64,000 bases of DNA. It comes from Pseudoponticoccus marisrubri (GTDB lineage: Bacteria > Pseudomonadota > Alphaproteobacteria > Rhodobacterales > Rhodobacteraceae). The translations under genes were made by a program, and so were the position numbers. The stretch covers positions 620,001 to 684,000 of the forward strand of contig NZ_LPXO01000001.1 in the NCBI RefSeq assembly GCF_001482405.1, written 5' to 3'. The notes under the pieces were generated by a model. It saw only the letters and a list, made by a program, of their open reading frames with translations. It was not told the DNA's origin and ran no database searches. Below, one piece after another: positions 36,246 to 58,168 of the stretch (positions are counted from its first letter, which is position 1; the number at the start of each line of letters is the position of its first letter).

Positions 36246-37121
36246 ATGTTCAAGGGATCGATGCCAGCCCTGGTCACGCCGTTCAAGGACGGCGCGGTGG
36301 ATTACGACACGCTCAAACGGCTGGTCGACTGGCATGTCGAGCAGGGCAGCCACGGGCTGGTCCCGGTGGGCACCACGGGCGAGAGCCCGACCCTGACGCA
36401 TCGCGAGCATGAAGAGATCATCGAATGCGTAGTGACGGCGGCGGCCGGACGGCTGCCCGTGATCGCGGGCACCGGCTCGAACAATACCGACGAGGCGATC
36501 CGCTTCACCCGCCACGCGGCCGAGGTCGGCGCGGATGGCGCGCTGGTCGTGACGCCCTATTACAACAAGCCCACGCAGGACGGCATGATCGCGCATTTCA
36601 AGGCGGTGCATGACAGCGCCGAGATCCCGATCATCATCTACAACATCCCCGGCCGGTCGGTCGTGGACATGTCGCCCGAGACCATGGGCGAGCTGGCCAA
36701 GCTGCCGCGCATCATCGGGGTCAAGGATGCCACCGCCGACCTGACCCGGGTGTGCCGGCAGCGGATCACCTGCGGGGCGGATTTCATCCAGCTCTCGGGC
36801 GAGGATCCGACGGCGCATGGCTTCAACGCACAAGGCGGCGTGGGCTGCATCTCAGTCACCGCCAATGCGGCTCCTGCACTTTGCGCGGAGATGCAGGAGG
36901 CCTGCCTCGAAGGGGATTACGCCAAGGCGCTGGCGCTGCAGGACCGGCTGATGCCGCTGCACCAGGCGATCTTTGCGGAGCCGGGCCTCTGCGGCGCGAA
37001 ATACGCCATGTCGCGGCTGGGGCTCTGCGATGACGAGGTGCGGCTGCCTCTGGTGCCGGTCACCGAGCCGGTCCGTGCCCGGATCGATGACGGGTTGCGC
37101 CACGCCGGGCTGCTGAACTGA
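36246..37121 (+). CDS. dapA: 4-hydroxy-tetrahydrodipicolinate synthase
   Basis: A 291-residue TIM-barrel lyase. Key sites are [17 protein letters not shown] (~37-53) with the Thr pair, [13 protein letters not shown] (catalytic Tyr, ~130-142), YNIPGRS and the Schiff-base Lys in [11 protein letters not shown] (~158-168). It condenses pyruvate with aspartate semialdehyde in lysine and diaminopimelate synthesis. AGAAGGAG precedes the ATG at 36246; the frame upstream is antisense to the transglycosylase. dapB lies 10 kb downstream, unlinked. Confidence 0.95.
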
Positions 37122-37140
37122 GCACCGGGCCCGGGCGGAG

Positions 37141-37161
37141 AAATTTCTTGGAAAGAAATTT
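37141..37161. repeat. Palindrome array after dapA, unit 1
   Basis: AAATTTCTT-gga-AAGAAATTT, a 9-bp stem. It directly abuts unit 2, and the pair is flanked by complementary GC-rich ends (CCGGGCGG before, CCGCCCGG after). Confidence 0.85.
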
Positions 37162-37185
37162 GCAAATTCCATGCATGGAATTTGC
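37162..37185. repeat. Palindrome array after dapA, unit 2
   Basis: A perfect 24-bp palindrome whose left half is GCAAATTCCATG. With unit 1 it fills the space between the convergent dapA and M16 peptidase genes. Compare the four-unit array at 56358-56453, which has the same unit size but different sequence. Confidence 0.9.
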
Positions 37186-37206
37186 CCGCCCGGCCCACAG
37201 CGTTTC

Positions 37207-38526
37207 CTACTGGCCCAAAGTCGACTCGAGCCCCTCGGGCTGTCCCACCACCACGAAATGCAACGCGTCGGGCTTGAGAAGCTCGCCCGCGACTCGCTTC
37301 ACATCCTCCAGCGTCACCGCCTCGATCTGCGCATTGCGCGTGGTCACGTAGTCGGGGCTGAGATCGTCCATTTGCATGCCCACGAGGATGCGGGCAATGG
37401 GGCGGTTGCCGTCGAAGCGCAGCGGGTAGGCGCCGGTCAGGTAGGTCTTGGCGGCCTCCAGCTCCTCCTGCGTCGCCCCCTCTTCCGCCATCTTCCGCCA
37501 TTCGGCACGGATCACCTCGATCGCCTCGGCGATGCGGTCATTGGCCGAGGCGACGCGGCCGAGGTAGAGCTCGGCGTGATCCTTGGGCACGAGGTAGGAA
37601 TAGACCCCGTAGGTGAGCCCGCGCTTCTCGCGCACCTCGTCCATCAGCCGCGATTCGAAGCCGCCGGCGCCGAGCATCTCGTTCAGCACGTAAGCGGTGA
37701 AGAAGTCGGGATGGTCGCGCGGCAGGCCCTCATGGCCGAAGATCGCCACGGATTGCGGGGTCTCGAAAGGGACCACGGTCACGCCGGCCTCGGTCTCGAC
37801 CTCGACACGCTCGGGCATGGACGCTCCGGTCTCGGGCAGGTCACTCAAGAGACGGTCCATCAGCGCGCCCAGTTCCTCGGCCGAGATGTCGCCGGCCGCC
37901 GCCACGTAGACGCGGTCCTGCGCGATCGCGTTGCGATGCGCCGTCACCAGGTCCTCGCGCGAGAGGGCCGCCACGCTTTCCAGCGTGCCGTCCAGCGACG
38001 ATCCATAGGGGTGGTCACCGAACACCATGCGGTCGAAGGCGGCGCTGACGATCTCGTTCGGGTCCGTCGCGTCCGAGCGGACCGAGGACAGCACCTGGCG
38101 CCGCACGCGCTCGATCGCGTCGGCATCGAAGCGCGGCTCGACCAGCGAGGCGCGCAGCAGCTCGACCGCTTCGTCCTGCGTCTCGGTCAGGAAGGTGGCC
38201 GAGATGCGCACCGAATCGTCGCCGAGGTCATAGCCGATCCGCGCCGCGATCGATTCCCGCGCCGCCGCGAAGTCCCGCGCCGACATCTCGCCAGCGCCTT
38301 CCTCGAGCAGGCCGACCATCAGGTTGGTCGCGCCGCGCTTGCCCGGCAGGTCGAGCGAGCCGCCGCCCTTGAAGCGCAGCTCCAGCGCCACGAAGGGGAT
38401 CGAGGGTTCCTCCACCAGCCAGGCCTTGAACCCGCCCGGGCTTTCGACCTCCTGGATGTCGATCTCGGCCTGCGCGGTCAGCGCGGTCAGGGCCAGCGCG
38501 CAGCTCAGGATCAGGCGCATCATCAT
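37207..38526 (-). CDS. M16 family peptidase-like protein, zinc motif absent
   Basis: A 439-residue M16 homologue with a signal peptide (MMMRLILSCALALTALTAQA, 1-20). Where an active enzyme has HxxEH it has NLMVGLLEEGAG, so the inverted zinc motif is missing; the second half keeps the M16 C-domain pattern (AYVLNEMLGAGGFESRLMDEVREKRGLTYGV). Heterodimeric M16 proteases pair one active and one inactive subunit, and the active partner is encoded directly upstream with a 4-bp overlap. It therefore probably serves as the substrate-holding subunit of a periplasmic protease. Confidence 0.9.
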   Translation of the reverse strand: MMMRLILSCALALTALTAQAEIDIQEVESPGGFKAWLVEEPSIPFVALELRFKGGGSLDLPGKRGATNLMVGLLEEGAGEMSARDFAAARESIAARIGYDLGDDSVRISATFLTETQDEAVELLRASLVEPRFDADAIERVRRQVLSSVRSDATDPNEIVSAAFDRMVFGDHPYGSSLDGTLESVAALSREDLVTAHRNAIAQDRVYVAAAGDISAEELGALMDRLLSDLPETGASMPERVEVETEAGVTVVPFETPQSVAIFGHEGLPRDHPDFFTAYVLNEMLGAGGFESRLMDEVREKRGLTYGVYSYLVPKDHAELYLGRVASANDRIAEAIEVIRAEWRKMAEEGATQEELEAAKTYLTGAYPLRFDGNRPIARILVGMQMDDLSPDYVTTRNAQIEAVTLEDVKRVAGELLKPDALHFVVVGQPEGLESTLGQ

Positions 38527-54133: not shown

Positions 54134-54208
54134 GGGCGGTTAGCTCAGCGGTAGAGCACTTCGTTGACATCGAAGGGGTCACTGGTTCGATCCCAGTATC
54201 GCCCACCA
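54134..54208 (+). tRNA. tRNA-Val (anticodon GAC)
   Basis: A 75-base cloverleaf is readable by eye. The acceptor stem is GGGCGGT with ATCGCCC, and ACCA follows, so CCA is encoded. The D stem is GCTC/GAGC, the anticodon stem CTTCG/CGAAG encloses loop TTGACAT with anticodon GAC, and the T stem ACTGG/CCAGT encloses TTCGATC. GAC reads GUC and GUU valine codons. Confidence 0.95.
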
Positions 54209-56357: not shown

Positions 56358-56381
56358 GCAAGGCTTTTCGAAAAGCCTTGC
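56358..56381. repeat. Palindrome array after phaC, unit 1
   Basis: A perfect 24-bp palindrome, left half GCAAGGCTTTTC. The array of four units is bracketed by GCGGGC (56354-56359) and GCCCGC (56453-56458). Confidence 0.92.
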
Positions 56382-56383
56382 AG

Positions 56384-56405
56384 GAACGCGTTTGCAAACG
56401 CGTTC
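56384..56405. repeat. Palindrome array after phaC, unit 2
   Basis: A perfect 22-bp palindrome, left half GAACGCGTTTG, two bases after unit 1. Confidence 0.92.
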
Positions 56406-56429
56406 GGAAGCGGTTTTAAAACCGCTTCC
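56406..56429. repeat. Palindrome array after phaC, unit 3
   Basis: A perfect 24-bp palindrome, left half GGAAGCGGTTTT, directly abutting unit 2. Confidence 0.92.
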
Positions 56430-56431
56430 TT

Positions 56432-56453
56432 CAAGCCGCTTCGAAGCGGCTTG
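56432..56453. repeat. Palindrome array after phaC, unit 4
   Basis: A perfect 22-bp palindrome, left half CAAGCCGCTTC, two bases after unit 3 and 14 bases before the stop of the convergent gene. Confidence 0.92.
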
Positions 56454-56467
56454 CCCGCCTTGGCCCG

Positions 56468-58168
56468 TCAGTCGCCGAGGATTCCGTCCGCGAGGATGCG
56501 CACCACGGTCTGCTCGTCGAGAAAGCCCGAGACACGCAGGCCGCGGGTTTCCTGGTAGCGACGGATCGCCGCGCGGGTCTGCTCGTCGAAGGTGCCGTCC
56601 ACGTTGCCCGGGCGCAGACCCAGCTGGGCGAGGCGCGCCTCGGCCAGCCGCTTGGCCACGGGGTTGAGGTTCAGCCCCTGTTCCTCGGCCCGGGCGCGCC
56701 CGGCATTCTGCGCCTGTTCGGCCTGCCGCTCCAGCTGGCGGATCCGCGCCTGCGCCTCGGCGGCGAAGGCCCCGTTGGGCCGCGCTTCGAGATATTCGCG
56801 GTAGCCCTCGATCGTGTTGACCTCTTCGACCCGCGCCCATTGGCGGCGGTCCTGCGTCGCGGCCTGCTGGGCGCGGCGCTGTTCGATCCCGCGCAACAGC
56901 TCGCGCGCCCGGTCGGCGAAGAGCCCTTCGGGATAGCGCTCGAGGTAGGCCCGGACAGAAGCTTCATCGCCGCTCGATTCGACCTCACGCCAGAAGGCCC
57001 GGTCGGCGCGCTCCTGTTCTTCCTGCCGCTGGCGCGCCTCTTCCTCCAGTTCGGCCGCGCGGCGGGCCGCCTGCGCGTCCAGCCGGGCGATCTGCGCGCT
57101 GTCGAGATAGGAGGACGGCTCTTCGTTCGCGGTCTCCTGCCATTGCCGGATCGCGCCGCGCGTGCCCGGGCCAAAGATCCCGTCGATGCCGCGCGTGTCA
57201 TAGCCCAGGATCGACAGGTCGCGCTGGATCTCGCGGCGCGCGTCGCGGCTCAGCTCCATCGCCTCCTCGGCGCGGCGCTCGGCGTAATAGGGCTCTTCCT
57301 CGATGGCCTTCAGCCGCTGGCGCGCGGCGGCGGCATGCAGCCCCTCGGGAAAGCCGTCGAGATAGGTGCGGTAGCCCTCGGCCGAATCGGCCTGCTGCGC
57401 CAGCCGCCAGGCGGTTTCGTCGGCGGCCGTGTCGATTTCGGGTTCGGGCTCCGGCTCCGGTTGCGGATCGGGCGCGGGCGCCGCTGTGTCGCTGTCGGGC
57501 TCGGCCTCGGCCTCGGGCGCGGCGACCACCACGAGGTCGCGCGGCGTGAACCCGGCCACCGACAGCTCGTATTGCTCGGCCGCCTCCAGCAGGCTCTGGC
57601 CTTCCTGCACCAGCTCGCGCGAGGCGAAGCGGGCCACATCCGTGGCCGGTCCGCGCAGCACGGTGACGCCTTGCGGGATCTGCAGATCACCCACGCCGGG
57701 CGACAGGAAGCGGCCGACCTCGGGGTCGACCGCCGTCTCGCCCAGCACCAGAAAGGCCTGCCCGGGATAGCGCGCCAGAACCGCCAGAACCGCGTCCATC
57801 GGCAGCGCGTCCAGCATCGCCACTGCATCGTCGGGCTCGCCATCGCCGGCCACGGGCAGCATGTAGGTGGCGCCGGGCGCGTGCACGAAGGCACCGGCCA
57901 GCACCACGACCACCGGCCCGTCGCCCTCCTGCAATTGCAGCACGAAATCGAGATAGGCCGTGGCCATCGTATCGGCATCGGCATCCTGGATCTCGGTCAC
58001 GTCGAAGCCGAGATCCGAGAAGGCCTTGGCCGATTCCGCCACCCGCGCGCTGCCGAAAAAGGTCTGGATCGCGTCGTACTGGCTGTTGCCGATCACCAGG
58101 GCGTCGCCCGCGGCATGGACGGCCGTACCCGCGACAAGCCCCAGCAGGGAAAGACGAAATGCGCTCAT
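56468..58168 (-). CDS. Degenerate caspase-like protein with two peptidoglycan-binding domains
   Basis: A 566-residue exported protein. A signal peptide (1-20, ending AVHAAG) leads into a caspase-fold region (~20-190): GDALVIGNSQYDAIQ, AKAFSDLGFDVTEIQDADADTM and a VVVVLAG strand. Where caspases have the catalytic His-Gly and Cys, this protein has AGAFVHAPGATYMLP and LVLGETAVDPE, so the dyad looks lost. After an acidic PEPEPE linker come helical repeats (YRTYLDGFPEGLHA, VRAYLERYPEGLFA, YREYLEARPNGAFA) and two PG-binding-type modules (~330-365 and ~510-560; LSILGYDTRGIDGIFGPGTR and LGLRPGNVDGTFDEQTRAAI). Probably a periplasmic scaffold. AAGGAGGATTGAAC supports the start. Confidence 0.85.
   Translation of the reverse strand: MSAFRLSLLGLVAGTAVHAAGDALVIGNSQYDAIQTFFGSARVAESAKAFSDLGFDVTEIQDADADTMATAYLDFVLQLQEGDGPVVVVLAGAFVHAPGATYMLPVAGDGEPDDAVAMLDALPMDAVLAVLARYPGQAFLVLGETAVDPEVGRFLSPGVGDLQIPQGVTVLRGPATDVARFASRELVQEGQSLLEAAEQYELSVAGFTPRDLVVVAAPEAEAEPDSDTAAPAPDPQPEPEPEPEIDTAADETAWRLAQQADSAEGYRTYLDGFPEGLHAAAARQRLKAIEEEPYYAERRAEEAMELSRDARREIQRDLSILGYDTRGIDGIFGPGTRGAIRQWQETANEEPSSYLDSAQIARLDAQAARRAAELEEEARQRQEEQERADRAFWREVESSGDEASVRAYLERYPEGLFADRARELLRGIEQRRAQQAATQDRRQWARVEEVNTIEGYREYLEARPNGAFAAEAQARIRQLERQAEQAQNAGRARAEEQGLNLNPVAKRLAEARLAQLGLRPGNVDGTFDEQTRAAIRRYQETRGLRVSGFLDEQTVVRILADGILGD

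Follow-up and report, generated by a model that had tools for sequence, protein, structure and literature searches.

What is the short palindromic array that lies between dapA and a convergent peptidase gene in Pseudoponticoccus marisrubri, and does it belong to a class of elements that keep their symmetry while their sequence changes? We analysed it within a window of 64,000 nucleotides, the whole stretch of DNA to which all positions refer, together with further parts of the genome and its relatives. The first-pass annotation had described a 9-bp stem unit abutting a perfect 24-bp palindrome, with a flanking sequence on either side, and its coordinates and symmetry proved exact (Table 1). 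The stop codon of the peptidase gene lies 21 nt beyond unit 2. As RNA, both strands of the array were predicted to fold into two separate hairpins enclosed by the GC flanks, with fold energies by strand of -42.6 and -47.2 kcal/mol (z-scores of -5.6 on the plus and -5.8 on the minus strand); folded singly, unit 1 reached -3.7 and unit 2 -11.6 kcal/mol. Across the two arrays of the window, this one and another at 56.4 kb, the z-scores on either strand ranged from -5.6 to -8.0.

Table 1. Features of the dapA array, its neighbours and the second array of the window
Feature	Position	Strand	Description
dapA	36246..37121	+	Gene call; Pfam DHDPS, E 4.9e-91; stop codon 19 nt upstream of the array
Left flank	37131..37138		G-rich, CCGGGCGG; pairing with the right flank possible
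Unit 1	37141..37161		9-bp stem, 3-nt loop; arms 37141-37149/37153-37161
Unit 2	37162..37185		Perfect 24-bp palindrome; arms 37162-37173/37174-37185, 12 nt each, no spacer
Right flank	37186..37193		C-rich, CCGCCCGG; possible partner of the CCGGGCGG flank
M16-type peptidase gene	37207..38526	-	Pfam Peptidase_M16_C, E 2.2e-32; convergent with dapA
Class B array	56358..56453		Four perfect palindromes: 56358-56381, 56384-56405, 56406-56429, 56432-56453; R2 match

A canonical terminator consists of a GC-rich hairpin followed by a T-run, and no T-run stands 3' of the dapA array on either strand. The sole terminator-consensus match between 36800 and 37500 was a unit followed by AAATTTCTTT (1 versus 0.4 in shuffles). 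A search of the whole window against Rfam 15 gave a single match above the gathering score, a tRNA at 54134-54205, and left the array unmatched. Since blastn with both window arrays found no plasmid match in PLSDB, we rejected plasmid spread.

Elsewhere in the P. marisrubri genome, blastn with the dapA element returned 39 matches, and a palindrome scan of contiguous sequence revealed two array families. Class A, to which the dapA array belongs, consists of two abutting AT-rich units (about 45 bp, typically GCAAATTYCRTnnAYGRAATTTGC), and class B of GC-rich units, mostly four, in a recurrent order of unit types (about 96 bp); units are spaced by about 22-25 bp, roughly two helical turns. The unit length first described as common to the two window arrays did not hold: the 56.4-kb array has four units with longer stems, of 11-12 nt, and is a member of a separate sequence family. 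Covariance models built from 23 class A elements (R1) and 8 class B elements (R2) gave 84 and 97 strand-matches in this genome, respectively. Because nearly all places match on both strands, these numbers correspond to about 42 class A and somewhat fewer than 50 class B places. Palindrome arrays are far beyond chance: by palindrome scan, the 864 kb sampled (C2:1-400000, C3:1-400000 and the window) contained 34 arrays of at least two units, versus 0, 0, 1, 0, 0 and 0 in six order-3 Markov surrogates.

With one genome searched per genus and at most 20 candidates scored in each, R1 detected class A in at least 66 of the 295 family genera; the 16 genomes from other families within the class gave no match, and R2 matched in 4 of 41 genomes. 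A class of elements, first suspected from two instances, is thereby confirmed and reaches further than those instances suggested. In two genera a GC-rich hairpin is succeeded by one of the form TCGGATCG...CGATCCGA (L027:6543-6589, corresponding to C2:366543-366589 of P. marisrubri, and L291 in G068); this combination is possibly a third array family. Two-unit palindrome pairs with very different vocabularies, for example CCGTTTTCCGAT.../CCGGAAAATGAT..., were seen in other Rhodobacteraceae (L192:2446-2498, L186:7737-7783 and L184:8497-8538), and the paired-palindrome design may be wider than the reach of both models. Beside the 56.4-kb array, the gene at 56467-58168 encodes a caspase-like (Peptidase_C14) domain together with peptidoglycan-binding domains. 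In the accessible portions of the open-licence literature we found no description of arrays of this kind; an earlier description in subscription journals is possible.

We then related the arrays to genes called by a six-frame codon gene finder. Among 35 arrays defined by the covariance models (15 class A, 20 class B), 23 lay between co-directional, 10 between convergent and 1 between divergent genes, and the remaining one (C3:254787) fell within a predicted gene, a doubtful case in which the gene start is possibly wrong. A stop codon was found within 30 bp upstream of 28 of the 35 arrays, at a median distance near 13 bp, and most arrays began 3-25 bp 3' of it. In an earlier set of 31 arrays, which excludes three GC-only clusters (C2:366543, C3:350233 and C3:377362), 24 lay within 30 bp after a stop codon, versus 14% of random intergenic placements, and 1 lay between divergent genes, against 30% expected from such placements. 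Convergent-gene position, previously taken as part of the shared design, applies to 10 of 35 arrays versus 28 of 35 close behind a stop codon; since neighbours are mostly co-directional, the placement rule is the gene 3' end and not convergence. A general preference of stem-loops for the 3' ends of genes, and for the first 50 bp behind stop codons, is described in PMC1590033. In 8 of the 23 tandem arrangements the next predicted start codon was at most 40 bp away.

Classical terminators were equally frequent with and without arrays, both at convergent (2/9 versus 12/58) and at tandem gene ends (1/19 versus 15/260), in counts from which an AT limit dropped some arrays; we thus rejected the idea that arrays substitute for them. 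The outer GC clamp was likewise rejected as a structural part. The window's 8-bp clamp at dapA is the longest among the 31 arrays, and flanks formed helices of 3.55 bp natively, 3.88 bp in a cross-array control and 2.26 bp at random intergenic sites. Flank complementarity is the same within and between arrays, which argues for composition (G-rich on one side, C-rich on the other) rather than pairing specificity. Of the GC-rich clamps noted at the outset, a general flank bias was retained and pair-by-pair matching was not.

Within the units, pairing is nearly perfect. Only 4 of 760 stem pairs, scored at offsets 3-10 from the unit centre in 32 arrays with 95 units of this genome, were mismatched, one of them being G-T, and model searches recovered few decayed, low-scoring copies even at E up to 1. 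Both sides had changed at 11 of 18 pairs of the class A alignment, with a covariation score of 0.450; shuffles gave 0.152, and slid structures no more than 0.140. Units of the same array also differ from each other. None of 39 G311 arrays had identical units, where shuffling predicted 8.05 (no shuffle of 4000 gave so low a count), and the same held in G233 (0/26 versus 3.8 expected, p=0.004) and for class B unit pairs of P. marisrubri (0/114 versus 4.3 expected by position, p=0.004). Counts for its class A (0/27) and for G114 plus G314 (0/22) pointed the same way and were not significant. Such non-identity would follow if cross-pairing is selected against, and also if slippage or palindrome instability removes neighbours that are identical.

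Does the array at dapA keep its palindromes while its sequence changes, the check that had been proposed for related species? The peptidase gene was present in 23 of 24 mostly array-bearing genera searched, and dapA was convergent and adjoining in 31 of 80 relatives found via the peptidase, within the sequence stretch examined. Many of these relatives carry a classical hairpin with a T-run at this spot, as does G020, the nearest relative by DapA among 40 searched, which has an ordinary intrinsic terminator there. G114 has a class A array, also matched by R1, yet with another sequence. In the Marivita group, 16 aligned dapA loci, classified by eye, comprised 4 with intact class-A-like arrays, 3 that were apparently part-decayed and 9 without an array; the unit sequences of the four intact arrays are unlike the window's, and they stand beside an ordinary terminator. 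The outcome is thus mixed: palindromes with changed sequence in G114 and four Marivita-group genomes, but not in the part-decayed loci or in relatives with an ordinary terminator. Arrays are gained, altered and lost at this site. In most of the Marivita-group loci (L149-L164), the peptidase stop is followed directly by a short palindrome, ATTTTACCnnnTGGTAAAA, and then by the classical terminator. Record L180, titled Enemella evansiae TN21-6 and so named as an actinobacterium, encodes a peptidase and a DapA that are 74% and 82% identical, respectively, to those of the window; the assembly has probably been mislabelled or contaminated.

Elsewhere, orthologous spots did retain their palindromes as the sequence changed. 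Comparison of orthologous gene ends between P. marisrubri and G002, a genome of another genus, gave arrays in both at 5 ends, in P. marisrubri only at 8, in G002 only at 5 and in neither at 102 (Fisher p=0.0013), a sharing rate that is biased because some G002 stretches were chosen for containing arrays and to which the AT limit also applied. Three further shared arrays, outside the script's limits, were seen by eye. Orthologous arrays of the two genomes were no more alike than random ones (in six pairs, 3.75 of 9 positions differed versus 3.68 in random ones; p=0.60), and at three spots one genus has class A and the other class B. Since an AT-rich class A array is swapped for a GC-rich class B array at some orthologous ends, it is the shape that is kept and not the sequence. 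Class B unit number seems genus-specific, being mostly four in P. marisrubri and two or three in G002. In five comparisons with G020 and G005, again under the AT limit, the counterpart of an array in P. marisrubri lacked one in every case.

Congeneric genomes (102 strand-matches in G233, 130 in G311) allowed a closer view of this turnover. The comparison covered about 46 of about 65 places in G311, 3 places in G312 and 28 loci or stretches in G233. A counterpart at the orthologous spot was found for 17 of 29 G233 arrays (16 in G311, 1 in G312), where full retention would give about 20 in G311. In the 16 congeneric pairs, 221 of 256 stem positions were the same, 33 had changed in both arms and 2 in one arm; if the arms changed independently, about 59 changes in one arm and 4.5 in both would be predicted. 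The count leaves out the pair L330/L393, in which the first unit of the G311 array has one G-T mismatch. Transitions made up 26 of the 33 both-arm changes, the central dinucleotide differed in 22 of 32 units, and the pairs were more alike than random ones (2.19 versus 3.50 differences per array). Both members of each pair were selected with models or palindrome scans, methods biased towards intact symmetry, and some decayed orthologs may thus be missed; the high retention among congeners limits their number.

Position, orientation independence, free letters and strict pairing together point to hairpins at transcript ends. We put the probability that the arrays serve as bidirectional RNA-hairpin barriers there at roughly one in two, judging from sequence. 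An array would be transcribed from either side, and each unit would fold into its own hairpin of 9-12 bp. The row of hairpins could block 3'-to-5' exonucleases from reaching the coding sequence and may also slow or release RNA polymerase, so that the array would fix the 3' end of the upstream mRNA, or of both mRNAs where genes converge. Letters would be free to drift, with both arms changing together, because the shape does the work, and units would have to differ to avoid cross-pairing into one long duplex and an unstable 45-bp DNA palindrome. The lack of a U-tract and the tight tandem pairs, which make obligatory termination unlikely, favour a two-way exonuclease barrier with possible polymerase pausing; tandem arrays close to the next start are more easily reconciled with an intercistronic stabiliser than with an obligatory terminator. 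Precedents are described in hairpins without a U-tract that protect upstream operon segments (PMC5927463) and in the pufBA 3' hairpin of Rhodobacter (PMC10253847). Several observations count against the barrier. In the one-way (tandem) settings of most arrays an RNA hairpin would tolerate G-U, and the single G-T among 760 pairs suggests a DNA-level or two-strand cause of the symmetry; ordinary terminators adjoin the Marivita arrays and are equally frequent with and without arrays; class A units are weak when single, and class A is absent from most family genera sampled. Template switching or true two-strand use could explain this lack of G-U in one-way settings, the chief difficulty for the barrier reading.

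The arrays might instead be unconventional intrinsic terminators (hairpin clusters, V- or X-shaped) that release polymerase in both directions without a U-tract, which we regard as unlikely, if well worth weighing. Their median stop-codon distance near 13 bp resembles that of hairpin clusters, of which 66(+/-10)% are reported within 20 bases (PMC8355165), and in close relatives the dapA spot is occupied by an ordinary bidirectional terminator. However, the hairpins lack a 3' T-run, arrays and terminators stand side by side in Marivita, and where the next predicted start follows within 40 bp, as in 8 of the 23 tandem cases, full termination would require a promoter inside the array. A mutational origin of the symmetry, in which template switching perfects imperfect palindromes of otherwise weakly selected repeats at tolerant sites, accords with the near absence of one-arm changes and G-T pairs, and template switching is described as correcting hairpin stems (PMC8794818). 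We hold it to be rather improbable, as it leaves the stop-codon placement, the retention at most congeneric spots and the non-identity of units unexplained, and decay does occur in Marivita. A more far-reaching reading, plausible though less likely than not, is a bacterial element class whose maintained trait would be dyad symmetry itself: replication template switching would restore it, and selection for hairpins that work from either strand at gene ends would keep it. The letters would then turn over freely, even from AT-rich to GC-rich at a single orthologous place, the two arms would alter jointly with hardly any intermediate states, and the units of an array would follow a non-identity rule.

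If the arrays were selfish REP-like repeats, carried by a transposase into harmless insertion sites at gene ends, this would account for the common order of unit types in class B copies, for the patchy presence and for the gains and losses at dapA, and REPs are described as favouring convergent-gene spaces (PMC1525189). Yet a Y1 transposase (PF01797) had no match in G000 (the P. marisrubri genome), G002, G005, G020 and G022, array positions are largely kept among congeners, and 8-nt flanks contained GTAG/CTAC at 0 of 35 arrays (random 2.5%) and CGTC/GACG at 1 of 35 (random 11%). With neither transposase nor tag, REP/RAYT mobility was rejected, and selfish spread is very improbable. We give least credence to binding sites for a dimeric DNA-binding or nucleoid protein. 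Strict dyad symmetry and a spacing of about two helical turns would suit such sites, but unit composition varies between AT-rich and GC-rich, even within a single orthologous spot, with the symmetry fixed; proteins read letters, and self-pairing alone reads symmetry.

The arrays amount to hundreds of natural hairpin replicates across dozens of genera, in which sequence drifts and symmetry does not. They make testable how compensatory changes arise, by selection through wobble intermediates or by templated correction, and likewise how mRNA 3' ends are defined in high-GC alphaproteobacteria, where U-tract terminators seem scarce. On the practical side, they are candidate bidirectional gene-end parts, and annotation as a family is warranted.

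Among known systems, the arrays are best read as neither RAYT-type REPs nor canonical terminators. With REP, BIME and REPIN elements (as described in PMC1525189 and PMC3733652) they share short dispersed palindromic repeats in many, often grouped copies at gene 3' ends, and as extragenic copies 33 of the 35 sampled arrays lie in non-divergent gene pairs. They differ in the lack of a RAYT in the array-bearing genomes tested, of a GTAG/CGTC tag and of a single conserved unit sequence. The canonical bidirectional intrinsic terminator (A-tract, GC hairpin, T-tract) takes the same place after dapA in relatives such as G020, whereas the arrays have several hairpins, AT-rich stems in class A and no flanking A/T tracts. 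Hairpin-cluster and U-, V- or X-shaped terminators (described in PMC8355165, where the V shape denotes no spacing between hairpins) resemble them in having adjacent hairpins near the stop codon, often without a U-tract, and adjacent stable hairpins soon after a stop codon are indeed what the arrays present. The arrays are set apart by near-perfect palindromes with a vocabulary shared within the lineage, by two architectures that recur, by arms that turn over in pairs and by units that differ from each other, and termination is here a candidate function. The intercistronic mRNA stabilisers of malE-malF (a REP) and puf (PMC5927463, PMC10253847) likewise have hairpins directly after the stop codon, with upstream protection possible for the arrays too. 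Such stabilisers are described in these sources as single loci or REP copies, whereas the arrays form a genome-wide system of putative protection.
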